From Bradyrhizobium sp. 195 (GTDB taxonomy: Bacteria; Pseudomonadota; Alphaproteobacteria; Rhizobiales; Xanthobacteraceae): a DNA stretch of 64,000 nucleotides. Positions 36,091 to 53,121 of this stretch are shown here, piece after piece (within the stretch, counting starts at the first letter, position 1; the number at the start of each line of letters is the position of its first letter). The stretch covers positions 7,254,001 through 7,318,000 of the forward strand of contig NZ_CP082161.1 in the NCBI RefSeq assembly GCF_023101665.1, given 5' to 3'. Below the pieces are notes generated by a model that saw only the letters and a program-made list of their open reading frames with translations, did no database searches and had not been told where the DNA came from. The position numbers and the translations under genes were made by a program.

Positions 36091-36627
36091 CTAACTCTCG
36101 GCCGGGTACGTCAGGCGGCCACCAACTACGGCCCGCGCCGCCGAATTCATTTCGGCCTGTTTGACCTGCCCCGGTCCGAGAATGTGAAACACCGTCTCGC
36201 CGGCCGCGAGCAAGTAATCGGTGATGATCCGCCGGTGGCATCGCCACCACAAGGTCTCTGCGCACATGATCGCGCAGCGCTGGACCTGCCCGAGAGCCCG
36301 CAGATGCGCGAGCCCTTCATGAAAGGCCGCGCTCATGGCGTGGTCGGCGTAATTGTGGAAGCTGCCGTTCTGCCAGAATGCGTTGGTCTCGCGCGGCACC
36401 TCGCGCTTGCGGCTGCGCAGGCCGCCGAGCGAGGCAATGTGCTCGTACCCGATCGAAACGGCCGCCAGCGACTGCGGCAGAGTCTCGCGATTGTACTGCG
36501 GATTGGTGCGGGAGCGGGGCACCGTACGAACGTCAGCCACGAAGGTGACCGAGCTGTCCTGCAACAATTCGACGAATTGCTCGATCGAACGCGTGGCATG
36601 GCCGATGGTGAAGAAGGGATGAGCCAT
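36091..36627 (-). CDS. DUF488 family protein
   Basis: A 178-residue protein of the DUF488 family. The family start FFTIGHATRSIEQFVELL, the DVRTVPRSRTNPQYN stretch and the later CAETLWWRCHRRIITDYL motif (Cys and paired His/Arg) are all present. These proteins are small, cytoplasmic and of unproven function; a nuclease or nucleic-acid-binding role has been suggested from the conserved residues. It lies 32 bp upstream of nothing similar; the next minus-strand gene is DUF2945, which ends 33 bp before its start. Confidence 0.9.
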   Translation of the reverse strand: MAHPFFTIGHATRSIEQFVELLQDSSVTFVADVRTVPRSRTNPQYNRETLPQSLAAVSIGYEHIASLGGLRSRKREVPRETNAFWQNGSFHNYADHAMSAAFHEGLAHLRALGQVQRCAIMCAETLWWRCHRRIITDYLLAAGETVFHILGPGQVKQAEMNSAARAVVGGRLTYPAES

Positions 36628-36659
36628 GGGGACGCCTCGTCAGCTCGGCCCGCAGGCCA

Positions 36660-36887
36660 TCAGTTCTTCAACAACCGCAATGCGCGGCCCTTGTGCAGAG
36701 CGACGTGGTCGGTCTTGTCGCTCTTGATCTCGTATTGCGGATCGTCCGGGCTGGCGTGGTGCGTGTAGCCCTTGTAGTCGACGTCCTCCGTGTGAACGCG
36801 CAGGATATGGCCGCGCACCCGGCCGGCCTCGGAATTCCAGCTGACGTGATCGCCGCGCTTGAAGGATTTTGTGGAGGGCTTCGGCAT
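36660..36887 (-). CDS. DUF2945 (HVA1/TUDOR-like) small protein
   Basis: A 75-residue protein with the DUF2945 pattern: FKRGDHVSWNSEAGRVRGHI at about 9-28, an HHASPDDPQYEIKSDKTDHV middle and a KGRALRLL end. This is a small beta-barrel (TUDOR-like) fold. The start at ATG 36887 fits the family; the upstream in-frame start at 36923 is less likely. It is transcribed with the DUF488 gene. Function unknown. Confidence 0.85.
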   Translation of the reverse strand: MPKPSTKSFKRGDHVSWNSEAGRVRGHILRVHTEDVDYKGYTHHASPDDPQYEIKSDKTDHVALHKGRALRLLKN

Positions 36888-37085
36888 GATGGAATAATGC
36901 CCGCTCGAGGGGGCGCGTTCCAAGAAGACCGAGCAAGATGCCCCAGTCCGTCTTCGCTCTGCGAGCTACGCCGGACAAGCTTCGCATTCAGATGAGTGGC
37001 TTGCCGAGCCGAAGCTCGCGGCGGCAGCCCGCCTTCGCCCTTTGGGCTTCGGCGTGGCATCTTCTCTCGCTTTGCGAGCGAAGGA

Positions 37086-37128
37086 TGGTGGGCACGACAG
37101 GGATCGAACCTGTGACCCCTACCATGTC
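37086..37128 (-). other. 3' fragment of tRNA-Val(GAC): probable integration-site (att) remnant
   Basis: Read on the minus strand, this 43-bp stretch is the 3' half of a tRNA: anticodon GAC, stem GGTAG, variable loop, T arm ACAGG-TTCGATC-CCTGT, acceptor CGTGCCC and encoded ACCA. Past the anticodon (higher coordinates) the sequence no longer matches a tRNA: no D arm or 5' acceptor is present. A copy broken in the anticodon loop is what tyrosine-recombinase integration leaves at one edge of an element. DNA to the right has island-like content. Confidence 0.7.
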
Positions 37129-37299
37129 GACGTGGGGGTCATCCGCGCATCTCATCGATTTCTATCCGCCTTCGATCAGGCCGGTGACGGCTCGTAAAGC
37201 CCCGTTTTCACGCTTTTTCGCGGTTTTGTGGAACTCTCGTGGAAACGGCGGTGGTCCGACCGGAGGCTCATCATGAGCGCCGGAAACGCCGCCCAAGGC

Positions 37300-37739
37300 C
37301 GGCATCCCCCTCATCGATCGCCTTCCCGCCCGACCGGCGAAACGAGCTGATCATGATCGGCCGGGAGGCCCCGTTCCCATTGGGGCGCTGACTGCCAAGC
37401 CCGCGTCCGGCAATTGTTTGCCACCCCCGAGGAACGAGAGCCGCCTGCGGTGCTGCATCGGGCGAACGAATTGAGCGCGTCGGCGGGTGTAGCAACCAAA
37501 CCCGCATTGGTGGAGCTGCGCGAGGACGCCGCGCTTTTAGCCTTCCACATCGCGCAGCTGCCGCCTGCTCGCGCCGCGCCGCGCGGCCCGACGCGATCGA
37601 CGCGAGCCTGGCCGTCGGACGCGCCAAGGTCGACGCGAGCGATACTTTCGAGGAGGCCGCCGCGCATCTGTCCTCTCGGGAGGTCTTTTCGATATTGAAC
37701 GACAGTTCGACACTGTCGGCGGTATTGCGGAAGCGATGA
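37300..37739 (+). pseudogene. Decayed gene remnant of unknown family
   Basis: Coding-like segments occur in shifted frames. One runs from about 37414 with LFATPEEREPPAVLHRANEL, continuing to FHIAQLPP; another, in a second frame, ends at the TGA 37737-37739 with AIDASLAVGRAKVDASDTFE and later SREVFSILNDSSTLSAVL. A short piece before them ends at about 37391. Together they look like an old protein gene with at least one frameshift. I do not recognise the family. It lies just inside the putative island edge. Confidence 0.35.
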
Positions 37740-37852
37740 ACACGATCGACTGGAGACCCGGCCTCGAACCAGGATAGAAAGTAGTCCACTACTTCTGCGT
37801 GGAATTCCGCTTCCGCCACCGGATCGATCGCTCGGCGGTCGGCCCGGGAACA

Positions 37853-39262
37853 TCAATATTCCCTTCGTGGTACCACCTGCGAGAGCGGCCTGACGGCCTG
37901 ATCTGCGAGCCCGCTCTGCAGCGTTGCTCGCCTTTCGGCGACGGCATGATCGAACAGTTCAAGGACGAGCCCGAATGCAGCCAAGTCCTCTTGTTCGATC
38001 GTTCCATCATCGTAGCACCTGAGGGTTTCACCGATAATTGCATCGACCTCGCGCTGCGATGTCAGCAGGTCCTGTTCGGACTCGACCTCTCGAACCTCCG
38101 TGACCAGGGCGAGAATGCGGGTGCGGTGGCTGGTGTTATCATCCCGTTCGTCCCGGTTCAGATAGCGACGCAGCCAGGCGGCGGCCGAACCGATACCGGA
38201 AAGAAGAAGCAAGGCGAACCAGAAGTAATCGCTGTACTTGTCCAGAAAGGTCCGCTCGGTCCCGTTGATGACCGCTGCGGCGCCTCGGTGCACTGAGGGC
38301 TCCGCTTCCTTCTCCGTCTCGGGCTTGGTGATGTGCGCAGCGCCGGCGACACGTTGCGTGATCGTATCTCGAACGGCGAAGAGCTGTCGGTAGAAGGCCG
38401 CCGCCTTGGCTTCGGAGAGTTCTTTTCTGGCCAGGATGAGATGGTTGACGCTGATGGTGTCGACCTTGTCCTCCGGCCAAGCCGGCTTCGTGTTGAACAC
38501 GCCGCCAGGAATCTCCTCCGCTTCGTAGCGGGCGTGCTTTAGGGCGATGGCCTCGGAAGTTTCGACCGGAAGAAACTTCGGAGCTCCACGCGCTCGCGAA
38601 GTCGCGGCGATCGCGTCGGCCGTGATCTTGCTGTCCAGCGGACCGACGGCGAGATACGCATCGAGAGTGGCGTCTTGCGCGAGCTTTTCGACGTCTTCGG
38701 TTCCGAATTGGGCCGTCGCTACCTTGTCCGGATCGAGGCCGGAGCCGGCGAGAATGATCCGCAGCAGCGCGAGGTTGGCCCCGGTCCTTCCGATGATGCC
38801 GACCTTGCGACCCGCCAGATCGGCGATCTCTCCGATTTTCCCGGTGGACTTTTTCTTGGAGTCCTTGCCCGCTCGCCCGGAGGTCGACCACAGCACGACG
38901 TAGTTCTTCCGAAGGACTGCCAGTGTCTGCGCGTCGACCGGCATCGCGAGGTCGCCACGACCGACCGCCAGGTCGCTTTTGCCGGCGCCCAGGAGGCCCA
39001 GGGATTCGGCCGCCCCTGCGGTCGTAATCGGGGAGAGCCTGACCGTCCTACTTTCCTCCTGGAAGGCTTCGGCTATCGCTTGGACCACTTGATGGTCGTC
39101 GCTGCCGGAGGGACCGACGGCGATCCGGAGCACCTCGGGCTGCAGCACGTAGAAGAGGGCGGCCGCAGCGGCACCAAAGACGGCACACCCCAACGCGAGC
39201 AGGATCAACAGCCTTCGTTGGCGTCGATCGGGAGCACTCCTGACTGGATCGGACCGTGGCAT
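37853..39262 (-). CDS. TAXI-family (TRAP-type) solute-binding protein with two membrane anchors
   Basis: A 469-residue protein of the TAXI/NMT1-like binding-protein class. An N-terminal membrane anchor (about 17-39) precedes the binding domain (IAVGPSGSDDHQVVQAIAEA, then GRKVGIIGRTGANLALLRII). A second membrane helix lies at about 347-367 (YFWFALLLLSGIGSAAAWL). The last 100 residues are hydrophilic and helical, presumably cytoplasmic. TAXI proteins are usually free periplasmic proteins of about 320 residues that feed a TRAP permease; no TRAP permease gene is nearby here. A sensing or signalling role is therefore as likely as transport. The same long form is known in related bacteria. Confidence 0.85.
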   Translation of the reverse strand: MPRSDPVRSAPDRRQRRLLILLALGCAVFGAAAAALFYVLQPEVLRIAVGPSGSDDHQVVQAIAEAFQEESRTVRLSPITTAGAAESLGLLGAGKSDLAVGRGDLAMPVDAQTLAVLRKNYVVLWSTSGRAGKDSKKKSTGKIGEIADLAGRKVGIIGRTGANLALLRIILAGSGLDPDKVATAQFGTEDVEKLAQDATLDAYLAVGPLDSKITADAIAATSRARGAPKFLPVETSEAIALKHARYEAEEIPGGVFNTKPAWPEDKVDTISVNHLILARKELSEAKAAAFYRQLFAVRDTITQRVAGAAHITKPETEKEAEPSVHRGAAAVINGTERTFLDKYSDYFWFALLLLSGIGSAAAWLRRYLNRDERDDNTSHRTRILALVTEVREVESEQDLLTSQREVDAIIGETLRCYDDGTIEQEDLAAFGLVLELFDHAVAERRATLQSGLADQAVRPLSQVVPRREY

Positions 39263-39481
39263 CAGCTGACCCCGCTAAACAAACAAACGCCTGCTTGGAC
39301 TGCAAGTGCGCGCCGCCACCGGGCGAACCGGTTGCCTGATGGGAATGTTCCCTCGCGCGCGATGCGGGTTGAAAGAGCGGCTGCATGCCGGGGGAAACAG
39401 GCAACCGCGAGGCCGTTGTTCCGAACCTTGCCACGAGTATCTTCGCTGTCACCGGAGTGCTGAGAGCCGGTCCAGTTCGAA

Positions 39482-39690
39482 CTTAGTAAATCCACTCGGC
39501 AAGCCATCCATGACTACCTGTGGGCGACCGGCAAGAAGCCGGGCGACCGCTCCTTCACCGACGGTCGAGGCCCCCGGTTGCAGCCTGGCACGCGGCAATT
39601 TGCGCGGCCGTTATCGGCGTGGCCTGCCGGTACGGCTTGGATCCTCGCCTGTTCGGCGTTCGCTGCGTTCGGGCCATGAACTTTTTAATA
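39482..39690 (+). pseudogene. Broken tyrosine recombinase (integrase) remnant
   Basis: In one frame from 39482 the sequence gives LSKSTRQAIHDYLWATGKKP, then FTDGRGP and TRQFARPLS, which matches the middle of short tyrosine recombinases of Rhizobiales. In a second frame from about 39628, YGLDPRLFG continues the same protein into the region that should read GTHSLRRTK. Here it degenerates (VRCVRAM) and the catalytic His-x-x-Arg and C-terminal Tyr parts are missing. So at least one frameshift and a 3' deletion are present. It supports mobile DNA to the right of the tRNA fragment. Confidence 0.6.
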
Positions 39691-40220: not shown

Positions 40221-40804
40221 GGAAGCATGCAGCAAAACGGAGATCATGGTTGGCAGGTTGCCGCTCATAGGTGGGCGATCGCCTGGCCAACCGATCCGAG
40301 GCTTCTACATGGCTTTGCTGCGCACCATTTTGGGCCATCGAAAAGGCCGGTGTTGAGCACATGCCGAGTTTTCGACCTACGTTTCGAAGTGCTTCTTCGC
40401 ACGCCTGCGAACGATAATGATGATCACGAGCCACTAGAACCCTTCCCGGACGGCTGGTGGGCTTCGTCGTGAGATCTCTCCGAAGGATGGGTGGGCCGAC
40501 GTGTCCCGTTATTCTCGACTTATGCACGGGGACAAAGAGGCTACGCACGGCAAGCTCATGACGCTGTCGCGTTTTTTTCGGATCGGGGTCGTCGCAGCAA
40601 CAGGGCTATAGAGAAGGCTTGTATACGCGAGTATAGTCGTCATGAGGCAAATTTAATCGAATATTGGCCGTGGCGAGGCCAGGTTCGCCCCTTCGCGCAT
40701 CGTTGGTGATCGCGGGCGCTATTTGCCACGCCGGGCGAGAAACTGGCCGCAATCTGGCAGAACAACGCCTCGATTGATCCATCGCGCGTGAGCAAGAGGT
40801 GATA
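40221..40804. other. Gap without a supported gene
   Basis: 584 bp between the possible small membrane protein and the PAS kinase. Several short open frames exist on both strands, but none has a convincing start, composition or family likeness. The promoter of the kinase gene should lie in its last part. Confidence 0.4.
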
Positions 40805-42340
40805 ATGCAACATCCGATTCAAGCGGCGTCGGTCGCGCTCGATTCGAATGAGCGCAAGGGTCCCGAGGAGGCACTGCGCGAGAGCGAGGAGCGCTTTCGC
40901 ACGCTGGTACAATTCTCCTTTGATGTGTACTGGGAAACGGACGCGCAGCATCGCTTCATCCGCCAGGAGTTCGCTGAGACACTTCCCGAGCCGCCGGTCT
41001 CCGAGATCGGCAGGACACGATGGGAGGTCCCGTATCTGGAGCCTGACGCAGAGGGCTGGCGCAAGCACAGGGAGACACTCGATTCTCACCTCCCGTTTCG
41101 CGATTTTGAGCTCGCTCGGCCGACGCCCGACGACGGCAAGCGCTATATTTCCGTCTCTGGGATGCCCATCTTTGACCAGACGGGGCGCTTCATGGGCTAC
41201 CGCGGTGTGGGGCGCCACATCACGGAGCGCAAGCGAGCCGAACAGGCGCTGATCGAGAGCGAGGCCCGTTTCCGTACCTTCGTGGATCACGCAACCGATA
41301 TGTTCATGCTCCACAATGAAGACGGTCGCGTTCGCGATGTGAATCGGAATGCCTGCGAAAGTCTCGGCTACAGCCGGGCCGAACTGGTGGGAGCAGCTGC
41401 GGCCTTGTTCGATCTGGAAATGGATGACGCCACTTGGCGTAGCAACCGCGAGCGCCTCAAGGCTGGCGGAATCGCTACGCTCGAGAGGCGGTATTGCCGA
41501 AAGGACGGCACTGTGTTTCCTGTCGAAGTCCGTATGCGGGAATTCTGCGAGGGCGGCCGGTCACGGATCATTTGTCTGAGCCGCGACATCACCGAACGCA
41601 AGCGAACTGCCGAGACGCTCCGCGAGATGCAGGCTGAACTTACACACGCCAATCGCGCGGCGGCGCTGGGCCAGGTCACCGCTTCGGTAACACACGAATT
41701 AAGCCAACCAATCACCGCGATGCTCTGCAACGCGGAGGCCGCACTGAACTGGCTAGGAACGCAATCTCCGAATTTCGAAAAGGCACGGCATGCGCTCGCA
41801 TCCATTGTCGCAGAAGCCGAGCGAGGCGGCGAGATCATCGGTTGGATCCGTTCCCTCATCAAGAAAACTCCGGCGCCGAAGGAGAACATCGACGTTAATG
41901 GTGCAATCCAGGACGTGATCACTATAGCCCGGAGCGAGCTGCTCAAACATGATGTCTTGATCCAGACCGACCTCGCTCCGGACTTGCCGCTCGTGAAGGG
42001 CTATCGCGTCCAGCTGCAACAGGTTGTTCTCAATTTGATCCTCAACGCGATCGAGGCAATGAACTGCCTCGACGTTGGCAGACGGGAGCTGCGGATCAGC
42101 ACGGCTGCAGATGCCCCAAATCTCGTTGTTGTCGCCGTACGGGATACCGGACCCGGACTTGACGTGGCAATCGTTGACCGCCTGTTCGAGCCCTTCTACA
42201 CCACCAAGCCGGACGGGACCGGCATGGGCTTGTCGATTTGCCAATCGATCATCGAGGCGCACGGAGGACGACTTTGGACCGGTGCGAATGAACCACGGGG
42301 GGCCGTGTTTCAGTTTAGTCTGCCTTCGGAACAGGGGTGA
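40805..42340 (+). CDS. Soluble PAS-PAS sensor histidine kinase
   Basis: A 511-residue cytoplasmic histidine kinase without membrane segments. Two PAS domains with PAC tails occupy about residues 17-140 and 140-268 (each ending in ITERKRA-type linkers). A HisKA domain follows with the phospho-His near 296 (VTHELSQPIT), and then a HATPase domain with N-box LQQVVLNLILNAIEAM and glycine box GTGMGLSICQSI. The ATG at 40805 is preceded by AAGAGGTG. No response regulator gene adjoins it, so its partner is elsewhere. Its first PAS domain is a near copy of one in the giant fusion protein at the right edge of the window. Confidence 0.92.
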   Translation: MQHPIQAASVALDSNERKGPEEALRESEERFRTLVQFSFDVYWETDAQHRFIRQEFAETLPEPPVSEIGRTRWEVPYLEPDAEGWRKHRETLDSHLPFRDFELARPTPDDGKRYISVSGMPIFDQTGRFMGYRGVGRHITERKRAEQALIESEARFRTFVDHATDMFMLHNEDGRVRDVNRNACESLGYSRAELVGAAAALFDLEMDDATWRSNRERLKAGGIATLERRYCRKDGTVFPVEVRMREFCEGGRSRIICLSRDITERKRTAETLREMQAELTHANRAAALGQVTASVTHELSQPITAMLCNAEAALNWLGTQSPNFEKARHALASIVAEAERGGEIIGWIRSLIKKTPAPKENIDVNGAIQDVITIARSELLKHDVLIQTDLAPDLPLVKGYRVQLQQVVLNLILNAIEAMNCLDVGRRELRISTAADAPNLVVVAVRDTGPGLDVAIVDRLFEPFYTTKPDGTGMGLSICQSIIEAHGGRLWTGANEPRGAVFQFSLPSEQG

Positions 42341-43029
42341 ACCACGTCGCTTTTCGAAGCGGGCGCTGCGCAGGCAGGAGTTCACGGCTTCAAACGCATC
42401 CTCGCTGCGGATGCGATAGTCCTTCGTCATACAGGTCGCAGCAGCGCAACGGATCGGCGGGTTGGTTTGCTTGCCAGCCCGGGGAGCGTCGCGAAGGGCG
42501 ACGTTCTGATAGCGGTTCGCTTCTCAAAGAGTGAAGAGCTGCCTAGAGGGGTCGCTAGACCAAGATCGGCTCATCGCTTGTAAGCGGACGTGCCTCTCCA
42601 CAAAGAATATCGGCTCCGTTAAAGCGAAGGCTTCAACGTCCTCACTCGTCACATGACCATTGGGTGGCAAGTCCGCTGCGGGTCAATCGCGTCGGTCTGC
42701 ACCTGAGTTCGGGACTTCCGGTCCACCTCCGGCTCCGGACATGTCGCAGCACTGCGCCAACTGACGCGATGGGCCAACAGGCGACATCGAGGGGCACCGG
42801 CGTTCTCGCGGAGGCGCGGTACTTCTGTCAGGCAGGCTGCGAGGCGACGGCAAGGGGCCGCTCAGTTATGCTGTTGGTGTTGATCTCGCTTTGATATTAT
42901 GCGCCGACAGCCGCACCCGATAGCGGGGGAAAATGAAAAGGCCCGCTACGATGAGGCGAATGGAAGCTGCAGACGCACAACCGTAATATTGCATAAGGTC
43001 ATTTGCCGTCCGGATAGAAGGCAAAGCGC
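42341..43029. other. Long gap without a supported gene
   Basis: 689 bp after the PAS kinase. It includes a sequence from about 42690 with GCGGGTCAATCGCG and ending GACGCGATGGGCC near 42776, loosely like the dispersed GGGTCAA...GATGGGCC repeats found further right. No open frame in it has credible coding character. It ends in the promoter region of the hydrolase-cyclase gene. Confidence 0.4.
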
Positions 43030-44366
43030 ATGAGTGATGTGGAACTTCCAACCACGCGTTATGTCCGCAGCGGAGATATCAGCATCGCCTATCAGACGAT
43101 GGGCCACGGTTCGGTCGATCTGATTATTATCCTTGGCGTTCTTTCCCACGTCGAGTTCATGCACGAGATTTTTCCGGGCTGGACGGATTTGTTGCGCCGC
43201 CTGGCAGCGTTTGCGCGTGTCGTAACGTTCGACAAGCGCGGACAGGGCCTCTCTGATCGCATGCCCGGCGTGCCATTGCTCGAAGAGCGGATGGATGACG
43301 TGAGCGCAATCATGGAGGCAATTGGGTCGAAGCGTGCCGTGCTGGTTGGGATTTCCGAAGGTGCGCCGATGAGCGCTCTGTTTGCAGCAACCTATCCCGA
43401 GCGTGTTTCTCATCTTGTGCTCTGGAGCGGGTTCGCGCGATTCACCAACACGAGCGATTTTTCATTGATGTTCCCCGAGGAAGCCATTTTTCGGTTGGTG
43501 AAGCATTATGGAACCGGCGCCTTCATCAAGGCCGTCATGCCGAGCGGGGCACATGATCCCGTACTCGTCAGCCAATTCGCCAAATTCGAACGCCTTAGCG
43601 CCAGTCCCGGAGCATTCAAGGCGCTGCTACAACAAAACGCGCTCATCGACGTGCGGCCAATTCTCGCGAACGTTCGTGTTCCAACCTTGGTGCTGCACAG
43701 TTTGAAGGACCGTCTGGTACCTGTAGAGAACGGCCGTTATCTGGCCTCGCAAATTCCCGGCGCGAAGTATATCGAGTACCCGGACGGGGCTCACGGCTTC
43801 TTCGAGTGCGATGTGCCCAAGCTGTGCGGGGAGATAGAGGAGTTCGTCACCGGCAAGCGGGAGAGTCAGCAGCACAACTTTGAGCGGGTCCTGGCAACCG
43901 TGCTGTTCACCGATATCGTCGATTCGACGAACCGCGCCGTCCAGATGGGCGACCATTCATGGCGTAGCCTGCTCGACGAGCACGACCGGATGGCGCGCCG
44001 GATCATCGAAAGGTATCGAGGGCAGCTGGTGAAGACGACTGGAGACGGTATCCTGGCCACGTTCGATGGTCCGGGGCGGGCCATCCACTGTGCGTTGGAT
44101 TTCGAAGCGGCGGCTGCGCAAATCGATTTGCCATTGCGCGCTGGCCTCCATGCGGGGGGGAAGTTGAAATCAGGCACCAGGATATCGGCGGCATCGCAGT
44201 TCACGCGGCAGCACGCGTCATGGCCCTTTCTCACCCGGGCGAAGTTCTGGTTTCGAGAGTAGTAATGGATTTGGTTGCGGGTGCAGGACTGAAGTTCACT
44301 CACCGGGGGGCACACAAGCTCAAGGGGTTGCCTGGGCGGTGGGACTTGTTCGCGGCGACCCCATGA
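43030..44366 (+). pseudogene. Alpha/beta hydrolase - class III cyclase fusion, frameshifted at a G7 run
   Basis: An N-terminal alpha/beta hydrolase domain (residues about 15-275, nucleophile S109 in GISEG, oxyanion region after strand 3) joined to a class III adenylate/guanylate cyclase domain (VLFTDIVDST at about 290, TTGDGILATFDGP at about 335). The frame shifts at seven Gs at 44154-44160. Read straight, the protein ends at 44262 after 25 odd residues. In another frame the sequence continues through HAAARVMALSHPGEVLVSRV to GRWDLFAATP and a stop at 44364-44366, the normal family C-terminus. Either a slippage mutation or a read error explains it. The intact protein would have about 444 residues. 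Confidence 0.8.
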
Positions 44367-44478
44367 CGATCTTCAGAATGTGCCGATCGCCTTGCAGGTG
44401 ACGGCAAACTCCTCATGATCGTCAACGCTTGAGCCTATCTTGGTCCAGACACCGGACAACGTCTCCAATGTCTGTTGT

Positions 44479-44575
44479 GGGTCAGAATGCGAAGAACTCA
44501 GCTTGAGGAAATCTCGTCCGCGGTGCCTCAGTGAGCGGACCTAATGGAGCGATCCCGCCACTTTGCCGATGGGCC
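44479..44575. repeat. Dispersed palindrome-bearing repeat, copy 1
   Basis: A 97-bp degenerate repeat running from GGGTCAGAATGCGAAG to TTGCCGATGGGCC, with an internal inverted repeat GTCCGC ... GCGGAC spaced 13 bases apart. Copies 2 and 3 are at 45471-45566 and 47557-47649. It lies just downstream of the methyltransferase stop. Confidence 0.7.
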
Positions 44576-44588
44576 GTATGCGAACATA

Positions 44589-45407
44589 TCAAACTGTGGC
44601 GGTGAGCAGGTGAGCTGCTATCGGGAACGACAACCCCCGACTATTCACGTATTTCTCCAAAGCCGACTTGGTATCGAGTGTGAGACGTTCGCGAGCCACA
44701 TCACTCGCTTGTGACACATGACCAGCTAGTGGCGAACCGGCGACATAACTCAACACAAATCGTTCGACCGATGGAAATTTGACGGTGCCGACCCTCCGTT
44801 GCACTGTGATATTCTGAAAACCGGCAGCAGTGACGAGTCCGCTCAGCTCATTGGCATCGGTTAATCCAAATGGCGCGCGCATGATTGTTGCTGCCGCCAG
44901 GCTGATGTTTCGCTCCAGTACTTCAGCGAACGATTGAAATCCGGGACTTTCATTTATGCCGCACCACACCATGAGCGCGAGCCGTCCCTTTGAAGACAGA
45001 ACCCTGCGCATCTCGCGCACAGCGGCCCCCCGGTCAGCGAAGAACTGGAGGCCGAGCTGGCAATACGCAATATCGAATGATCTGTCGGGGAACGGCAACC
45101 TGTCCGCAGTGGCTTCGTGCCACTGTATGGAGGCAGCGTCGTCGGTGGTCCCCAGGGCTCGTGCAACGGTCAACATGCCGGGATTGAGATCAACACCGGC
45201 GACGGTCCCGGTTGGACCTACCCTTGCGGCCGAAACGCGAGCGACTATACCGGTGCCACAGGCGATATCGAGTATGCGCTCGCCTACCTTTGGTTGAGCC
45301 ATATCAACCAGGATGGGAGCCCACAGCCCAAAAACAGCCGGCACCAGTTCCCGCTCGTAGACTTCGGGTGCGCTACCGCTGACTTGCCACTGTCCTTGCT
45401 GACCCAT
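44589..45407 (-). CDS. Class I SAM-dependent methyltransferase
   Basis: A 272-residue methyltransferase of the ubiquinone/menaquinone-biosynthesis-like group. Motif I is ILDIACGTGIVAR at about 43-55, the acidic end of strand 2 is VAGVDLNPGML at about 67-77, and the later RVLSSKGRLALMVW motif is typical. The start at ATG 45407 (MGQQGQWQVSG) fits family N-termini; a TTG at 45452 with GAGGGA upstream would add 15 residues. Substrate unknown. Repeats flank it on both sides. Confidence 0.88.
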   Translation of the reverse strand: MGQQGQWQVSGSAPEVYERELVPAVFGLWAPILVDMAQPKVGERILDIACGTGIVARVSAARVGPTGTVAGVDLNPGMLTVARALGTTDDAASIQWHEATADRLPFPDRSFDIAYCQLGLQFFADRGAAVREMRRVLSSKGRLALMVWCGINESPGFQSFAEVLERNISLAAATIMRAPFGLTDANELSGLVTAAGFQNITVQRRVGTVKFPSVERFVLSYVAGSPLAGHVSQASDVARERLTLDTKSALEKYVNSRGLSFPIAAHLLTATV

Positions 45408-45466
45408 CTGATGATGCCACAGGACGTTGGTTCCAGCGTTAGTGTAGATCAATCCCTCGAAGGCCG

Positions 45467-45805
45467 CTATGGGTCAAAATGCGAAGTACGCAGGTTGAGC
45501 AATCTTGTCCGCTCTGCCGCGATGAGCGGACCTCCGTCAGACGCGCTGCAACTTCGCAGATGAGCAACAGCAGACTTAGCAAAATGAAGGGGCTCAGCGA
45601 CTTCCTGCTCTAGCTCTTTGTGGATGTGGTCGAGGTGCGTGAGGTGAGTTATCTGTAACTCGCGATAGGTTTCCAATACCTGCGTTGCCAGTTCTGTAGG
45701 ATGACCGTGGCGCCCCAGCATGTCGATGATCTCGATTTGACGGGCAATATGTCTCTCACCGAGGGCGATATGCCGCTTGGCTTCCGCCAGATGTTCTAAG
45801 ATCAT
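45467..45805 (-). CDS. Short helical hypothetical protein whose C-terminus is supplied by a repeat
   Basis: A 112-residue frame. The first 85 residues are helical and coding-like, starting LEHLAEAKRHIALGERHIAR and continuing LATQVLETYRELQ, a type of small hypothetical protein seen in Bradyrhizobium. The last 30 or so residues are read through copy 2 of the dispersed repeat. This suggests the repeat entered the gene's 3' end and the original C-terminus has been lost. No function can be assigned. Confidence 0.55.
   Translation of the reverse strand: MILEHLAEAKRHIALGERHIARQIEIIDMLGRHGHPTELATQVLETYRELQITHLTHLDHIHKELEQEVAEPLHFAKSAVAHLRSCSASDGGPLIAAERTRLLNLRTSHFDP
45471..45566. repeat. Dispersed palindrome-bearing repeat, copy 2
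   Basis: Aligns with copy 1 from GGGTCAAAATGCGAAG to CGCAGATGAGCA, with the same inner GTCCGC ... GCGGAC inverted repeat 13 bases apart and the conserved GTCCGC-(13)-GCGGACCT block. It overlaps the end of a small hypothetical gene. Confidence 0.7.
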
Positions 45806-45810
45806 CCTAG

Positions 45811-46014
45811 CGCAATTGTACTCCCGAAGACCGCGCAGCCCGCGCGATCGAGCAGTCTCGCTTCCTCATTGCGGAGCGCAGGCAGGTTCTGGACGAGCTA
45901 GGGCTGATCTACGCGCGGAGATCCCAAGCTGCACGGAAAGCCTTACAAGGTGTTCAGAAATCCGAGGCCGAGCTTGTCGCCAACTCCCCACGATGGCTTT
46001 CCTTCACGGGCTAA
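45811..46014 (+). pseudogene. Coding-like remnant without a start
   Basis: A 67-codon open frame following a stop and containing AARAIEQSRFLIAERRQVLD, then ARKALQGVQKSEAEL, ending at the TAA 46012-46014. Composition is that of a helical protein, but there is no start codon near the front. It is probably the tail of a lost gene. Family not recognised. Confidence 0.3.
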
Positions 46015-46100
46015 GGTCGGCTTAGGACACAGGCACTGCTTCAATCCCTCCCAAGAGTCTGGAGGTTTGTCGGCGGCAAATTTCCTGTGCGGCCTCCGCC

Positions 46101-46280
46101 TCATGACCTTTTCTGCGTGGGAGACTGCTCGCTCCGGAGCGACTCTTCGCGCCTCCGGCTCATGGTCCGCAAGAGGTGCGCAGTCCAATAGCGAGCGAGC
46201 GCGATACTTCCTTCCACCTCGCGCCGGATCAACTCGTTATCCCGAATAGCTCTGTCGGCTCGTTTCAGTAGCTCGTTCAT
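46101..46280 (-). CDS. Possible small Arg/Glu-rich helical protein
   Basis: A 59-residue frame beginning MNELLKRADRAIRDNELIRR, strongly helical and charged. No clear ribosome binding site is seen (GGGTTG only). It is comparable in style to other short helical proteins found beside mobile DNA in rhizobia, but it may be a chance frame. Confidence 0.35.
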   Translation of the reverse strand: MNELLKRADRAIRDNELIRREVEGSIALARYWTAHLLRTMSRRREESLRSEQSPTQKRS

Positions 46281-46487
46281 TCAACCCAAAGTCGGGACGA
46301 GGCTAACCGTTCCTGCAAATGCGACTACTCGGGAGCCTACCGGAACCAGGTGCAGGTCACAGGCTGACGAACCGAAGCTAGATCAGCGACGTCTGTTCTC
46401 GCTTTGAAAGCGGCCTCCTTTCTCCGCGCCCGGCCGGCACCGCTTCGGGCCATAACCGGACTCATGCATCGCAGCAAAACACCATCT

Positions 46488-47447
46488 CTATTCGATCACT
46501 TCGTCGGCACGAACGAGTAACGAGGGCGGCACGGTGAGGCCGAGCGCTTTAGCCGTCTTCATGTTGATGACTAGGTCGAATTTGGTCGGCTGCTCTACCG
46601 GCAGATCGGCAGGCTTGGTGCCTTTGAGGATCTTATCGACGTAACCGCCCGCACGGCGGAACAAATCGGCTATATCGGGGCCGTAGACGACCAATCCGCC
46701 ATGGGCGAATTGTCGGAAGAAGTAAATCGCCGGCAAATGATACTCCGCCGCGAGCCCGACAACTCGCGGGGCTTGGCGAATGGTCAGAATGTCGCCAAAA
46801 ATAATTATTGCATCGACGCGCTGGGCGGCTGCCGAAGCAAAGGCGGTGTCGAGTTCCTCGGCCTTAGTCGCCTCGACCATAGACAGAGCCACGTCGTGCT
46901 TCCGGGCTGTGCTTGGTACCTCATCAGCTAACAACAGCCTGTGCATTGGGTTCTCGCGATTAACTAAAAGCGCAATTCTCGCGGCACCTGGTATCAGTTC
47001 CCGGAGAATTTCTATTTGTTTTCCAAACCAATCTCCCGGCACCCACGACGTAAGACCGGTCATGTTGCCGCCTGGACGCGAGAGGCTTTGGACGAGGCCT
47101 AGTCCGACGGGATCGGCAACAACCACGAAGACAATCGGAATAGTGGCGGATTTCAGGGCTAAGGCCGCTTGCGGCCCGGCGGCAACTATCAGATCGGGAG
47201 CTAGAGCCACCAACTCCGCAGCGAAGGTTGGCAAGCGATCCGAAGTTTCGGCATAACTACGGTATTCGATGAGCAGGTTCCTGCCCTCGATCCAACCCCT
47301 TTCGCGCAAGCCAGTGCTCCATGCTTCGCGAGATATCGGATCTAAGAAACCGAAGAAACCGATGCGGCGAGGCATCCCTTGCGCCCGCAAACGCCGGGGC
47401 GAAACGAGCAGCGCCGCAGCAGTCGCCATAAACTCCCGCCGCTTCAT
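46488..47447 (-). CDS. PF04392-type (TrpX-like) ABC substrate-binding protein, orphan 1
   Basis: A 319-residue binding protein of the family that includes TrpX-type ABC receptors. The N-terminus MKRREFMATAAALLVSPRRL is a Tat-like or lipoprotein-like export signal. The domain then has RIGFFGFLDP, GRNLLIEYR, RPGGNMTGLTSW and the family's late MKTAKALGLTVPPSLLVRAD motif. The protein ends RADEVIE, a tail shared by its relatives. No permease or ATPase is adjacent. Two similar genes lie within 4 kb. The start at 47447 is chosen for the signal; 27 more upstream codons are open. Confidence 0.88.
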   Translation of the reverse strand: MKRREFMATAAALLVSPRRLRAQGMPRRIGFFGFLDPISREAWSTGLRERGWIEGRNLLIEYRSYAETSDRLPTFAAELVALAPDLIVAAGPQAALALKSATIPIVFVVVADPVGLGLVQSLSRPGGNMTGLTSWVPGDWFGKQIEILRELIPGAARIALLVNRENPMHRLLLADEVPSTARKHDVALSMVEATKAEELDTAFASAAAQRVDAIIIFGDILTIRQAPRVVGLAAEYHLPAIYFFRQFAHGGLVVYGPDIADLFRRAGGYVDKILKGTKPADLPVEQPTKFDLVINMKTAKALGLTVPPSLLVRADEVIE

Positions 47448-47556
47448 TCGATCCTCATCGCAGCTTGGGGAGACAGGTGCAGAGTAGCAGTCTCCGCAGT
47501 CACTGCGGATGCAAATGCTGAGTCGCAAATGCGGCGAGATGGCGCATCCGCGCTTC

Positions 47557-47649
47557 GGGTCAAATGCGAAGAGCTCGGGATAAGCAAATCTAGTCCGCCA
47601 TCACGCAATGAGCGGACCACCGTCAACGCCGTTGCTTCGCTGATGGGCC
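47557..47649. repeat. Dispersed palindrome-bearing repeat, copy 3
   Basis: Third copy, from GGGTCAAATGCGAAG to GCTGATGGGCC, with GTCCGC ... GCGGAC again 13 bases apart. It lies between two binding-protein genes transcribed in the same direction. Confidence 0.7.
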
Positions 47650-47687
47650 ATATCAGGTCGTGAGCAGCCGCGGCGACTCTTGCGACG

Positions 47688-48677
47688 TTATTCAATTACA
47701 TCGTCGGCGCGGGCGAGCAGCATGTCGGGCACCGCAAGACCGAGTGCCTTTGCAGTTCTTACATTGATGACGAGGTCGAGCCGGGTGGGAAACTCAAAGG
47801 GTAAATCGGCCACGGGGGTGCCTTTGAGTATCTTATACACGTAGGTCGCAGCGCGATAATTGCATGCCCGAAGGTCAATTCCATAGCTAACGAGTCCGCC
47901 TGCATCCACGAGTTCGCGGTATCCGTAAAGGGTCGGGAGCCGAGTTGCCGCTGCGGCAGCGGTGATCTGAGCCCTATCCAAGAGTAAGAAGTTAGCCTGC
48001 AGAACGATGACGACATCAACACGCTCCGCCTTAAACCTTCTGAACGCGGGTTCAACATCCTCGGTTCTCTGAACATCCGCATCTACGATCTTGATTTCAA
48101 ATTTCGCGGCGGTGGCGTTGATTTCGTCCCACTGCGGTGCTGTTTTGATGTCGCTCGTGTCATTTACGATTCCAACTTTTTGCGCGCCGTGAACGATTTC
48201 CCGCGCGATCTCAAGCTGCTTTGCAGGCAACCCACGCACGTAGGGCATGATGCCGGTCAGGTTGCCAGTCGGGCGGCGAACTTCGTTTTCCGACAATCCA
48301 AGCGCGGTCAGGTTTCCCAACGCTGCAACAACGATCGGGATGGTTGATGTTGCCTGCTTGGCGGCAAGCGCATTGGCGCTGGCGGCGGCAAAAATGACAT
48401 CGGGGTTGAGCTGAACCACCTCCCTCGCCACCTCTGGTAACTTCTCGGTAGACGCGGCAAGTCGGAACGTTATGTCGAAATCGCGCCCCTCGATGTATCC
48501 GAGTTCTTGCAGCCCCTTCAAGAACGATGGCCAGGCTCCGTAACCTTTGCGCTGAGCTGGCGTACCCGATCCAAATGTGCCGATAACGGGCCGTTTCCTC
48601 GGGGCCTGGGCTCGTGCGACGGACGGCCACGCAATTGCTGCGCCGCCAAATAGAGTCAAGAACTCGCGTCGTCTCAT
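47688..48677 (-). CDS. PF04392-type (TrpX-like) ABC substrate-binding protein, orphan 2
   Basis: A 329-residue paralogue of orphan 1. The N-terminus MRRREFLTLFGGAAIAWPSV again has a twin-arginine-like export signal. The domain includes VIGTFGSGTP, EGRDFDITFR and NVRTAKALGLAVPDMLLARAD, ending RADDVIE. It is transcribed in the same direction as orphan 1 from a separate promoter, with a dispersed repeat between them. Ligand unknown. Start at ATG 48677 fits the signal peptide. Confidence 0.88.
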   Translation of the reverse strand: MRRREFLTLFGGAAIAWPSVARAQAPRKRPVIGTFGSGTPAQRKGYGAWPSFLKGLQELGYIEGRDFDITFRLAASTEKLPEVAREVVQLNPDVIFAAASANALAAKQATSTIPIVVAALGNLTALGLSENEVRRPTGNLTGIMPYVRGLPAKQLEIAREIVHGAQKVGIVNDTSDIKTAPQWDEINATAAKFEIKIVDADVQRTEDVEPAFRRFKAERVDVVIVLQANFLLLDRAQITAAAAATRLPTLYGYRELVDAGGLVSYGIDLRACNYRAATYVYKILKGTPVADLPFEFPTRLDLVINVRTAKALGLAVPDMLLARADDVIE

Positions 48678-48905
48678 GTGTCCACCCCCGGGCTCAGGAG
48701 AGGGAGACTTGTCGTCATAGATCATAGCACGTTGAGAGAAGCGGGGCTATTTTCGTTACGTCTGTTGGGTAGCCGTGGAGGTCTGTTTCGGGTCAAAAGC
48801 GGAATGTTGTGTTGCCCAAGCCTCGATCCGCTCTGTCTCCGAAAGCAGACATGCCACAGTTTCCGCTGCACGTCGGCTCAGGGCATCAGCGGAAGTGAGG
48901 TGTCC

Positions 48906-48950
48906 TCACTCGATCACTTCGTCGCTGCGGGCGAGAAGTGCTGACGTTAC
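48906..48950 (-). pseudogene. C-terminal tail fragment of a further PF04392-type binding protein
   Basis: In the minus strand, 15 codons read VTSALLARSDEVIE then stop, matching the shared tail (LLARADEVIE) of the neighbouring binding proteins. No other part of such a gene is present upstream of it. A preceding sequence near 48787 contains GGGTCAAAAGCGGA, related in style to the dispersed repeats. The rest of the 419-bp gap 48678-49096 shows no gene. Confidence 0.4.
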
Positions 48951-49096
48951 AGCCACGTCGACGAGCGCCCGAGTTCCTCTTGGGGTCGATCAGGAAAGTG
49001 ACAGCCAATCGGACCCTTTCCGCGGCATCCCCGGCCACGTATCAGCATCGAGATTCAGATGCTAGATTTCAGGCCCCTACCGAATAGGAGAACGAC

Positions 49097-49312
49097 ATGC
49101 CCGAGAGCGTCTACAAGGTCGTTGAATTGATCGGCACCAGCAAAGACTCCTGGGAGAGAGCGGCCGCCAATGCGGTCGAGCAAGCCGCTAAATCTCTCCG
49201 AGATCTTCGCATCGCAGAGGTCGTCAAGCTCGATATGCAACTAGATGACAAGGGAAAAGTCGAGGTCTATCGCGCCAAGCTCAACGTATCGTTCAAGTTC
49301 GAGGGCTCCTGA
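49097..49312 (+). CDS. Dodecin (flavin-storage protein)
   Basis: A 71-residue dodecin, which forms dodecameric shells that bind flavins. The family start VYKVVELIGTSKDSWERAA, with the tryptophan that stacks on the flavin, and the end VYRAKLNVSFKFE are clear. AGGAGAAC precedes the ATG at 49097. A hairpin follows its stop. It is one of few fully intact housekeeping-like genes in this decayed region. Confidence 0.92.
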   Translation: MPESVYKVVELIGTSKDSWERAAANAVEQAAKSLRDLRIAEVVKLDMQLDDKGKVEVYRAKLNVSFKFEGS

Positions 49313-49321
49313 GCCTCAGCA

Positions 49322-49343
49322 CCTCGCCCCTTTGCGGGCGAGG
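49322..49343 (+). terminator. Terminator-like hairpin after dodecin
   Basis: An 8-bp stem CCTCGCCC / GGGCGAGG around a 6-base loop, 10 bp after the dodecin stop codon. No T-run follows, so it may act as an RNA end-protecting structure instead of a classical terminator. Confidence 0.5.
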
Positions 49344-49454
49344 ATGGCTCATTGAAAAAGCGCGTTGCGCAGTCCAGCAACCGGACGCTGTTGCCCATCC
49401 CGGAAGTCGGCACTAGTCCGGCTGGGACCGATATGATCTGATGCGAGGGAGCGT

Positions 49455-49721
49455 ATGGCGCGTGGTGGCCCCATGTACATGGTCATTCGCAAGTACACGA
49501 AGGTCTGCCCTTGCTCGTGTAGTCGACATGATGTCACCATCGCATTTGCGATGATCGCGCCGTGGATTTACGCGGGCCGCCGGTCAGGGATTAAATCGCG
49601 GGTGCTTTACGAGGAACAGCAACGCCATGAAGCAAAACACCTTCGCAACATTTTCCATCGCAGCGATCTGCTCGACACCGCTTACGCTTATGGGCACTGC
49701 GATGCCGCCAAGAGATCCTGA
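49455..49721 (+). pseudogene. Possible N-terminal remnant of a small monooxygenase-like protein
   Basis: The first part reads MYMVIRKYTKV from 49473, the start seen in antibiotic-biosynthesis-monooxygenase-like proteins. After that the sequence loses likeness and becomes Cys/His/Arg-rich to a stop at 49721, overlapping the next small gene. I read it as a decayed start fused to unrelated sequence; it may not be expressed. Confidence 0.25.
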
Positions 49722-49818
49722 TGAAGAGGACGAGGAAGAAGATGAGGAGGACGAAGATGAGGAAAGGGAAGATGACACTGACGAACCGGCGGTCGTGCGC
49801 GAGCCGGACGAAGATTAG
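49627..49818 (+). CDS. Small exported protein with a highly acidic tail
   Basis: A 63-residue protein starting MKQNTFATFSIAAICSTPLT, a plausible signal sequence, with possible cleavage near residue 24. After residue 30 the sequence is almost all Glu and Asp. GAGGAA lies about 10 bases before the ATG at 49627. The acidic tail could bind divalent metals or a basic partner; this is inference. It precedes the GcrA-like gene by 39 bp. Confidence 0.55.
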   Translation: MKQNTFATFSIAAICSTPLTLMGTAMPPRDPDEEDEEEDEEDEDEEREDDTDEPAVVREPDED

Positions 49819-49857
49819 ACTAGTCCGTGTTCGGCAGTCGGCGCTATAATATCTCCC

Positions 49858-50187
49858 ATGGGTTGGGATGCGAAAGACATAGGGCTCCTCACTAGGCTCT
49901 GGTCCGCAGGACAGAGCGCGGCGCAGATAGCGCGTCGTCTCGGATGCAGTCGTAACGCGGTCTGCGGCATGCTGAGCCGTCAGGGCCTGAAGCGCGGCCA
50001 CAAGCCGCCTACGGCAAGGCCCAAGATACGACCGCCCCCGAAGCTGCGGCCGCCGTCGTCGGCAGCTTGCGCCCATCCAGTCGCAAAGAAGGTGTCGCGA
50101 AACACATCGGAGAGGCCGCAGCCCAAGGAGTTCAGCAGGCAGCAGCTTTACGACATGCTGGCTGATGCGGTCAGAAATACTGGCTAG
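49858..50187 (+). CDS. GcrA-like DNA-binding protein (short form)
   Basis: A 109-residue protein. Residues about 3-46 (DIGLLTRLWSAGQSAAQIAR, then RNAVCGMLSRQGL) match the N-terminal helix-turn-helix of GcrA, the alphaproteobacterial cell-cycle regulator that works with sigma-70 at methylated promoters. The middle is a basic, Pro-rich linker (KPPTARPKIRPPPKLRPP). The C-terminal sigma-binding domain of GcrA is not evident: the protein is much shorter than the usual 170 residues or so. It is therefore probably a mobile-element or paralogous GcrA-like regulator and not the housekeeping gene. Confidence 0.7.
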   Translation: MGWDAKDIGLLTRLWSAGQSAAQIARRLGCSRNAVCGMLSRQGLKRGHKPPTARPKIRPPPKLRPPSSAACAHPVAKKVSRNTSERPQPKEFSRQQLYDMLADAVRNTG

Positions 50188-50272
50188 GAATCACCGCGAA
50201 CGTCGTTGCGCTTCCGTCAGTGTCTAGCTCGGCTCGATGGGTTCGACCGTCGTGCACCCTCGGAAGCGTAGT

Positions 50273-51292
50273 TTACTCGAGCACCTCATCTGCGCCGGCA
50301 ACGATTACTGAGGAGAACGCAGAACCGAGCAGTTTGGCAGCCTTCAAGTTGATAACGAGCTCTACCTTTGTTACGAGCTGGACTGGAAGATCGGAAGGCT
50401 TCTCGCCCAACAGGATCCGTCCGGCATAGATCCCGGCGCGGCGGTGCGACTGCATGAAGTCTCCACCGTAGCTCATCAAACCTCCGGCAACGGGAAAGTC
50501 TCGGGTCTGTGTGATTGCGGGCACGCGATACTTTATTGCGAGAGCAGCCAACCGCGAACTGCGAAATGCAAAATAGGGATCCGAGGTAAAAACAAGCCCA
50601 CTTGCCCCGTCCTTGGCCGCGGCGGCGAATACAGATTCAAACTCATCCTCCTTACTTGCGGCTAAGACTTCCAGTTGAACCCGCAGGGTGTCTGCAGCTG
50701 CGTGAAGCTTCTGTAATTGTGATTGTGCGGTCGGACTTGTCGGGTTGGCGACAACCATCAACTTCGGCGCTGTGGGCATCAGGTCGCGCATAAACTCAAG
50801 CCTCTTTGGCGAAACGTCGACACTCAGGCTCGAAACTCCCGTGATGTTTCCGCCCGGCCGCGACAAGCTGTCGACCACGTGTAGCTGGACGGGGTCGCCG
50901 CCCATCTCAAAAACGATTGTCTTGGTCGTAGTCGCCGCTTTCGCGGCCAGTGCCACGGGGGCGCCCCCAGGCGCTACGAGCACATCCACGTTGCGGGCGA
51001 CCAGTTCGGTAGCCAAGGCAGGCAATTGAGAATATTGTCCGTTGGCCCATCGATACTCGATTGCCACATTGCGGCCCTCGACAAAGCCAGCTTCTCCTAG
51101 TCCCTGGTGGAAAGCCTCAAGTCGACTGGCAAAGAGTTCGGGCGACTCCGGACAAAGATAGCCAATGACTGGCATGGAGGACTTCTGCGCATACGAGGCG
51201 GTCGTGCACGTCGCAGCCCCTGCCATCAAAAGCAGAAAATCACGCCGCTTGGCGCTTCGTGGCGCTGCTGCTACTGAACGGGCGGACCTCAT
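50273..51292 (-). CDS. PF04392-type (TrpX-like) ABC substrate-binding protein, orphan 3
   Basis: A 339-residue third member of the orphan binding-protein group, more diverged from the other two. The export signal region reads SAKRRDFLLLMAGAATCTTA. Domain marks include VIGYLCPESPE, GRNVAIEYRWANGQ, RPGGNITGVSS and NLKAAKLLGSAFSSVIVAGAD, ending ADEVLE. Start at ATG 51292, upstream of the twin-arginine-like signal; 13 more codons are open upstream. It converges on the GcrA-like gene and is followed upstream by a cyclase gene on the same strand. Confidence 0.87.
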   Translation of the reverse strand: MRSARSVAAAPRSAKRRDFLLLMAGAATCTTASYAQKSSMPVIGYLCPESPELFASRLEAFHQGLGEAGFVEGRNVAIEYRWANGQYSQLPALATELVARNVDVLVAPGGAPVALAAKAATTTKTIVFEMGGDPVQLHVVDSLSRPGGNITGVSSLSVDVSPKRLEFMRDLMPTAPKLMVVANPTSPTAQSQLQKLHAAADTLRVQLEVLAASKEDEFESVFAAAAKDGASGLVFTSDPYFAFRSSRLAALAIKYRVPAITQTRDFPVAGGLMSYGGDFMQSHRRAGIYAGRILLGEKPSDLPVQLVTKVELVINLKAAKLLGSAFSSVIVAGADEVLE

Positions 51293-51393
51293 GCATACGC
51301 ATCCGCTACCGAAAACTAATTTGCGGAGCATAGCCCGGGATGCTCAAACAGTCTTCAACAGGGTTATGCCAGGCATCCGGCGGCCAGCCTCGG

Positions 51394-53121
51394 CTAGAGA
51401 GTATTGAAGTTTATCCCGAAGACAGGAATAGCTTCATCAAATCCCTTGATTTCTCGGCCCCCAAGATCCTCGACGGGCCGCTTGCCCTTGATGCCAACGG
51501 CGACTTTGGCGTCGATCAGGATTTCCCCGTCTGCGGCAGATGCGCACAGTCGGGCGGCGAGATTCACAACGCTGCCAATGGCGGTGTAGTCGAGCCGGTC
51601 CTTGTATCCGATCCGGCCGACAGTCGCGGGCCCGCTGGCTAGGCCGATTCCGAAACCAACGTGGTAGCCATTCGATCGCCAGCCAGCGATAAGGGCTTGC
51701 ACGTTCTTCTGCATGTCGATGGCGAGATCGATAGCTCTCAATGCAGGCTCTTCGACTGGGACAGGTGCGTTCACCAGAACCATCAGTCCGTCTCCGGAGA
51801 AATTGATCAGAGTTGCTTCGAATTCCGCGATGACCCTGCCAAGGCTCTCATAGTACTCGGACAGTACGCTCATGACGTCCTCAGGCGCAGCTCCTGCTGA
51901 AAACGCGGTGAAACCCCTCAAATCGCAGAAGACTACGACGACTTCCGTGCGGCGGCCGTCCAGCACGCTGTCGTCCCCGGCTCTATCGACGAGATCGGCG
52001 ACCTGGGGGGCAAGAAACCGCTTGAGCTTGGCTATGCGCTCCTGGTGCTGCTGCGCCAGCGCCAACTCGGAAGCCATTCTGTTGAAGCTTTCTGCAAGGC
52101 GCTGGAACTCGTCCCCGGTGTGGATTGAGATGCGGTGCTCAAAGAACCCGGCACCAATCCTCTCAGTGCCCTCCTCGAGCAGTTTAATTGGCTCCGTCAT
52201 CCGGTCCGCGAACGCGTAGGCCAGAACCCCTGCTAGTATGATGCTGATTGCGAGAAGCACTGCGGTCCGCCAAAGGGCGGCATAGATCGGCGCGTAAGCT
52301 TCAGATAGCGGCTGCGCGACCACGACTGTCCAATCGGGGCCCTGCACGGGAGCCGTGCTGGCAACAATATATTGTCCTTGTGCATCCCGGCTCGTTGCGA
52401 AACCCCGTTTAGTCCCTATCGCGTCCCGCACAGCCCGAAATGGTTCGGAGGTTGCTTCTTCTGCCCCGCGGAGAACGAGGCTGATGTCCGGATGGGCGAT
52501 AAGGCGACCCGATCGGTCCAGGACGAAGGCGTAGCCGGTCCTTCCGAACTTGATCGCCGAGATCACGTCCCAAATCAGCTTAAGGTTGATTTCGGCCACG
52601 ACTGCGCCGACAGCCTGTCGGTTGCCCACAGTCGCAACGGTCAGGTACGGTTCGGAGCCTCGATTGTAGCTGACTTCGCTGAACCAGATCTGAGCTGCCC
52701 GGGCACCGACCAGAGTGGGATCGGCTGATCGGTCCGCGCGGCTCTCGATCCGATTCAGGCCGATCCGCGAGATATAGAGACGCTCTAGACCGTTGCCGTC
52801 GAGGAGCGTGAGACTGGCGATGGCAGGCGCCTGTCGAAGGAGGCGCAACGCGTCGGTCCGCCGGCGGTCGTCGGGCTCCTCGGTCCACGGAAGCTGGACC
52901 AGCCAGCCAAGCTGAGTTGTGATACCGTGGATGAAATCGTGTATTTCGGCGGCCGCGGATGCTGATTGAAGACCAAGCGACTGATCAAGCCTCGCGCGCT
53001 GATCGCGATAGCCGAACCACCCTTCAATAACGCCGTTGAATGCCAGTGGGATTGCGACAGCTACGAAAAGTGCGAGCAAATATTTATGAAAGAGGCTGCG
53101 AAACCGATCTTGAGCAATCAT
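51394..53121 (-). CDS. Membrane-bound CACHE-HAMP class III adenylate/guanylate cyclase
   Basis: A 575-residue receptor cyclase. The first membrane helix (about 12-32) precedes a periplasmic CACHE-like sensor of about 240 residues (LQSASAAAEIHDFIHG, FVLDRSGRLIAHPD), then a second helix at about 285-307, a HAMP domain and a class III cyclase domain starting VVVVFCDLRGFTAFS with metal Asp, and a later FSGDGLMVLVNAPVP with the second metal Asp. It converts ATP or GTP to a cyclic nucleotide in response to a ligand outside the cytoplasm. The ATG at 53121 has AGGAGA upstream. The HD hydrolase gene is next, in the opposite direction. Confidence 0.92.
   Translation of the reverse strand: MIAQDRFRSLFHKYLLALFVAVAIPLAFNGVIEGWFGYRDQRARLDQSLGLQSASAAAEIHDFIHGITTQLGWLVQLPWTEEPDDRRRTDALRLLRQAPAIASLTLLDGNGLERLYISRIGLNRIESRADRSADPTLVGARAAQIWFSEVSYNRGSEPYLTVATVGNRQAVGAVVAEINLKLIWDVISAIKFGRTGYAFVLDRSGRLIAHPDISLVLRGAEEATSEPFRAVRDAIGTKRGFATSRDAQGQYIVASTAPVQGPDWTVVVAQPLSEAYAPIYAALWRTAVLLAISIILAGVLAYAFADRMTEPIKLLEEGTERIGAGFFEHRISIHTGDEFQRLAESFNRMASELALAQQHQERIAKLKRFLAPQVADLVDRAGDDSVLDGRRTEVVVVFCDLRGFTAFSAGAAPEDVMSVLSEYYESLGRVIAEFEATLINFSGDGLMVLVNAPVPVEEPALRAIDLAIDMQKNVQALIAGWRSNGYHVGFGIGLASGPATVGRIGYKDRLDYTAIGSVVNLAARLCASAADGEILIDAKVAVGIKGKRPVEDLGGREIKGFDEAIPVFGINFNTL

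Follow-up and report, generated by a model that had tools for sequence, protein, structure and literature searches.

Results and discussion

The repeat pair and the intact tRNA-Val(GAC) gene

The window, a stretch of 64,000 nucleotides from Bradyrhizobium sp. 195 (C1:7254001–7318000 in a genome of 9.14 Mb on three contigs), contains a short piece of a tRNA-Val gene. The question is whether this piece marks the edge of a genomic island, where the other edge lies and how the island arose. The minus strand at 37086–37128 corresponds to bases 33–75 of tRNA-Val(GAC), from the first anticodon base onward. The 5′ half does not follow the fragment, the near copy runs on into unrelated sequence, and a tRNA-Val call by ARAGORN is absent from the window. 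The first-pass annotation of a tRNA-Val(GAC) 3′ fragment with no 5′ half beside it is thus borne out. A tRNA-Ala(cgc) call by ARAGORN at 36381–36472 sits over the coding region of a DUF488 gene and is probably a false positive.

It had been proposed that an intact tRNA-Val(GAC) with a matching 43-bp repeat be sought elsewhere in the genome. The intact gene was found at C1:7324182–7324256 (L007 6182–6256) on the minus strand, 6.2 kb beyond the window, according to ARAGORN. The exact repeat is 45 bp (37084–37128), consisting of the 43 bases of the tRNA part and 2 further bases. The 124 kb of the chromosome that were read contain this string twice. The second copy has the same orientation, lies at a distance of 33,096 bp on the right, is identical at 45/45 bp, and completes the tRNA-Val(GAC) gene. 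When 111 bases around the fragment were used as a query against the own genome, six matches were obtained, namely the fragment itself, C1:7324180 (89% over 63 bp) and a further four that are weaker. A chance exact match of 45 bp is not expected in 9.1 Mb. The two core copies bound an island of 33.1 kb, and the fragment at 37084–37128 marks its tRNA-distal end. The features at this end are as follows.

36135–37083: chromosomal left flank, with the DUF488 gene (36091–36627, minus strand) and a short ORF (36640–36987); it adjoins the intact tRNA-Val in relatives with an empty site
37084–37128, minus strand: att core, the displaced 3′ end of tRNA-Val(GAC), a 45-bp exact direct repeat of C1:7324180–7324224
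37084–64000: the island as far as the window reaches; beyond this it goes on to the second att copy at window-equivalent 70180–70224 (C1:7324180–7324224)

Empty sites in relatives

Comparison of synteny with relatives showed that the region is absent from them and that the left flank is joined directly to the tRNA gene, as the island reading had anticipated. Bradyrhizobium sp. 141 (L150) has the left flank (91.9% over 1,021 columns) and the right flank (95.0% over 2,783 columns) joined at tRNA-Val. Among 14 fetched relatives, 0.95 kb of the left flank runs unbroken into the core and then into the right flank in three (G009, G034 and G018), and 76–409 bp run unbroken into the core in nine more. 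The last ~90 bp of the left flank (36996–37083) is a repeat dispersed across the genus, and five of the nine shorter matches rest only on this repeat (G013, G022, G011, G010 and G017). Four of these five have more flank blocks nearby, and G010 has none. In G002 the flank block stops 36 bp from the core match, and in G008 the left flank was not found at the core. A repeat in this position beside the att core can mimic synteny.

The scan of named genomes concerned the best 80 of 449 loci, all titled Bradyrhizobium save one "Bradyrhizobiaceae bacterium". The left flank is unbroken from window position 36700 or further left to the core in 11 of these best 80. Our unique flank, with the 36996–37083 repeat excluded, is found at most 6 kb from the tRNA in 62 of them. 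The remainder consists of five loci with the flank beyond 6 kb, nine class-A arms, two class-B neighbours, one class-C neighbour and one locus that is too short. At L197 and L201, which are class-A tRNA ends, our chromosomal flank is only 5.3–5.6 kb away; each of them may therefore be a very short remnant from the same group of elements.

The repeat pair, the intact tRNA gene and the empty sites support the earlier proposal that the fragment is the edge (att site) of an island running to the right and past the window. An island extending far past the window is ruled out, as it ends just 6.2 kb beyond, at the intact tRNA-Val(GAC).

Composition and cargo of the island

The lower GC content that had been reported for the right-hand DNA was confirmed. 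The GC content of the island is 0.600, against 0.637 for the left flank and 0.638 for the right flank, and that of 40799–58747 is 0.585. The cargo inside the window is as follows.

37853–39262, minus strand: NMT1/TAXI-like binding protein (Pfam NMT1_3; the TAXI label is our assumption)
40799–42340, plus strand: PAS histidine kinase
43030–44262, plus strand: alpha/beta hydrolase, in which a C-terminal cyclase match falls just short of the Pfam cut-off
44589–45452, minus strand: methyltransferase
46488–48725, minus strand: two ABC_sub_bind proteins (46488–47528 and 47688–48725)
50273–53304, minus strand: ABC_sub_bind protein (50273–51331) and Cache-HAMP-nucleotide cyclase (51394–53304)
54947–58321, plus strand: SAM-cyclase-AAA protein of 1124 aa
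58748–64000, plus strand: Ser/Thr kinase-AAA-GAF-PAS-histidine kinase of 1956 aa, ending at window coordinate 64618, outside the window

A TPR protein also belongs to the cargo. The pair of ABC_sub_bind protein and Cache-HAMP cyclase is kept together elsewhere in two relatives examined. The cargo as a whole is a mosaic, the pieces of which are found at separate places in relatives, and thus the 33 kb need not have come in one event. Among the matches listed for 265 genomes of the genus (at most two candidates per genome scored), only the own genome covers the whole 2.58-kb tRNA-proximal query, and only the own genome covers the whole 7-kb cyclase query. No match to a relaxase or T4SS component was obtained in the island ORFs that were scanned.

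The gene of the TPR protein (533 aa) and the stretch following it form a unit of 2.49 kb (L007 3460–5946, window-equivalent 67460–69946). This unit was observed at seven loci of the relatives examined, with nearly the same ends and 90–92% identity, at six sites (two loci share flanks). The two ORFs of the unit that were scanned gave no recombinase match.

Elements with a two-recombinase module at tRNA-Val(GAC)

Copies of the core with at most one mismatch were searched in 265 genomes; a backwards control pattern gave 0 among the matches listed. Two or more copies are present in 15 genomes. None was counted in 61 of the 265, a number that includes diverged cases, as G025 has two copies too diverged for the pattern. 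In two of the 15 genomes, copies are located at contig ends (both in G208, one in G030) and are possibly assembly effects.

The related elements carry a module at the tRNA-distal end, in which an HTH protein and three unknown proteins accompany two divergent tyrosine recombinases. Homologues of the 376-aa module integrase are present in 7 of the 265 genomes (E ≤ 1e-30). The five close homologues (57–100% identity; G078, G089, G170, G232 and G259) all belong to the 15 genomes with repeated cores, and in each of the five the integrase gene is located 2.0–2.3 kb inside the tRNA-less core copy. The weaker homologues (36–40%) of G034 and G111 occur in single-core genomes, with the gene on another contig than the core, and G034 has an empty site. 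The core copies are 584 kb apart in G232, and in G259 they are 296 kb apart; both elements have the intact tRNA-Val(GAC) at the end opposite the tRNA-less copy. Other lineages at tRNA-Val(GAC) have different arms and different integrase-like genes.

The module relic and the ends of the island

The tRNA-distal end of the present island was compared with these elements, and it matches that of G259 over 285 bp. The features around this end are as follows.

37129–37369: island end; core included, this stretch matches the G259 296-kb element at its tRNA-distal end with 88% identity (250/285)
37272–37370, plus strand: remnant of the beginning of the first module gene, spread over more than one frame and then truncated (two tblastn pieces of 15–16 aa in two frames, E 0.001 each)
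37371–37744, plus strand: 3′ fragment of a glucosyltransferase gene, which we take to be mdoH-like, abutting the break (375 bp align at 83% with the end of a 741-aa ORF of L126)
39467–39628, plus strand: remnant of a small-type (211–220 aa) tyrosine recombinase, matching a 211-aa PF00589 recombinase of the own genome at 57% over 54 aa (E 4e-13)

The match to G259 includes 241 bp beyond the core, and the homology then ends inside the first gene of the module. From 37370 on, directly beside the tRNA fragment, the module is missing. As only the start of its first gene is left, the island looks like a decayed relative of the two-recombinase elements and not like a working member. Repeats of GTGGAA are present at the 37129–37369 end and at the other island end. 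The tRNA-side arm resembles the class-A arms, with 66–67 island bases inside tRNA-spanning alignments of 83–89%, and it aligns with G259 at 69% over 542 columns. Judged from these alignments, the tRNA-side arm is a weaker link to the putative element group than the left end.

A search for an integrase between the repeats had also been suggested. The recombinase relic and the start of the module's first gene are present, and no intact integrase was recognised in the island. None of the 20 PF00589 matches of the own genome (E ≤ 1) falls inside it, and a useful match to the module integrase is absent from the own genome. A divergent integrase that escapes the Pfam profile may nevertheless be present.

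The same features could be read as two elements accreted at one site. The left end would then come from a large two-recombinase element that was mostly deleted, the right part would be another island, and the 33 kb would be a fusion. The mosaic cargo, with homologues at unrelated places, agrees with this reading. So do the mdoH-like fragment that abuts the break, the same fragment being located 3.6–4.1 kb from the tRNA at two class-A tRNA ends (L197 and L167), and the tandem core copies of G170. However, the region contains only two exact core copies, and both island ends resemble the same element group. We regard such a fusion as improbable.

The recombinase relic at 39467–39628 raises another possibility, that the island was brought by a small tyrosine recombinase and that the match of its end to the two-recombinase elements reflects only a shared att site. 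The relic, reported in the first-pass annotation, is real and is located 2.3 kb inside the fragment, but it belongs to another family than the recombinases of the related elements here. Against this possibility, the 88% match spans 241 bp past the core, the homology ends inside the module's first gene, and the other lineages at this site have their own arms and integrase-like genes. An origin by the small recombinase is very unlikely. tRNA fragments can have other origins, but a chance or duplication remnant (e.g. a local duplication) with no island edge is a negligible alternative, as the direct repeats 33 kb apart, the GC step and the matched element ends oppose it and the empty-site junctions joined at the repeat already refute it.

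Proposed origin of the island

The 33.1-kb island is very probably the remnant of an element that was inserted in tRNA-Val(GAC) and has since lost its module, keeping both att copies and no integrase of its own, in the manner of a CIME. From the arrangement of the repeats and ends, we infer the following course of events. A mobile element would have entered the chromosomal tRNA-Val(GAC) gene by site-specific integration into its 3′ half. With strand exchange taking place in the anticodon loop, the gene would have received the element's copy of the tRNA 3′ end and remained intact, and the original 3′ end would have been left at the far edge of the element, now 33.1 kb off (37084–37128). The element presumably came from the group with the recombinase module at the far edge. 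The module may have been lost later through a break at 37370, and the remainder would be an island with a patchwork of signalling and uptake genes that is probably immobile at present.

The kind of island is known, namely a tRNA-borne genomic island in decay, and as far as sequence can tell it appears to fit the definition of a CIME (cis-mobilizable element) in PMC5704250. As in that definition, attL and attR are kept with no recognised intact integrase between them. Among the ORFs scanned, a transfer gene was not recognised. A point of difference is that the module integrase finds no useful match in the own genome. The island itself is an ordinary case, and the related blocks at tRNA-Val(GAC) carry an unusual enzyme set.

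Comparison with published tRNA-Val elements

According to the cited papers, symICEs at tRNA-Val are the commonest type (PMC9174649, PMC9239051), and a 45-bp partial tRNA-Val, called tRNA-Val(CAC), is located beside a symbiosis-island border in Bradyrhizobium (PMC4036050). The present island is alike in having a 45-bp partial tRNA-Val at its border in the same genus. The IntV att query given in PMC9239051 is identical at 45/45 aligned bases to the tRNA-Val(CAC) of our genome, and aligns with the GAC gene only with mismatches and gaps; our site is therefore a different gene. A location at the att site published for the symICEs is thus ruled out, and one new point here is that the site differs from the published Bradyrhizobium symICE site, tRNA-Val(CAC). 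The anticodon GAC was not found in the part of the literature on Bradyrhizobium tRNA-Val integrative elements that the search covered. The island is also much smaller, 33 kb against ~0.50 Mb for a large tRNA-Val symICE (PMC9174649). It contains no nifH, the sole match in the own genome (E ≤ 1e-20) being far away at C1:1182435.

An exact 45-bp fragment of tRNA-Val(CAC) was observed in the own genome near C1:1842353 (L003), far from the intact CAC gene at 6890715–6890789 (L005). Such a fragment with a distant intact CAC gene is the pattern published for tRNA-Val symICEs.

The island was also compared with the symbiosis island published for Bradyrhizobium sp. CB1015 (Table 4 of PMC11837538), which we take to be that of G232. 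G232 shares the tRNA-Val(GAC) site and has a module integrase at the distal end. In G232, the distance from tRNA-Val(GAC) to a serine recombinase (1799760–1801403) is ~577.7 kb, which equals the island size given for CB1015 in PMC11837538. The tRNA-side alignment of G232 to ours is 88.9% over 287 bp, 66 bp of them on the island side. G232 has nifH between its att copies and 584 kb between the core copies with an intact module, whereas ours has 33 kb without the module. The symbiosis island of CB1015 probably uses the tRNA-Val(GAC) site and the two-recombinase module.

In G232:C1:1799760–1808028 (L248), the second att copy is located ~6.6 kb beyond the serine recombinase, after the two-recombinase module. 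If G232 is CB1015, the published border of the symbiosis island (the serine recombinase) does not reach the second att copy, which lies ~6.6 kb further out.

Implications

On balance, we lean towards the view that tRNA-Val(GAC) is a second tRNA-Val integration hotspot of Bradyrhizobium, separate from the IntV/tRNA-Val(CAC) site, with at least four kinds of integrase-like genes beside it. One kind would mark an undescribed element group with a module at the tRNA-far end, in which two divergent tyrosine recombinases are combined with an excisionase-like HTH protein and with three unknown proteins that are conserved. This group would include the CB1015 symbiosis island and leave integrase-less remnants like the present island. 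Within the partial coverage of the literature search, no title on such a two-recombinase module was found.

One clue of 43 bp fixed both ends of a 33-kb island. The term tRNA-Val in the literature on Bradyrhizobium islands can mean two genes, and a search that uses only the CAC att sequence as its query might overlook elements at GAC. For the movement of very large islands, probably including the symbiosis island of an inoculant strain, the two-recombinase module offers a candidate that can be tested.
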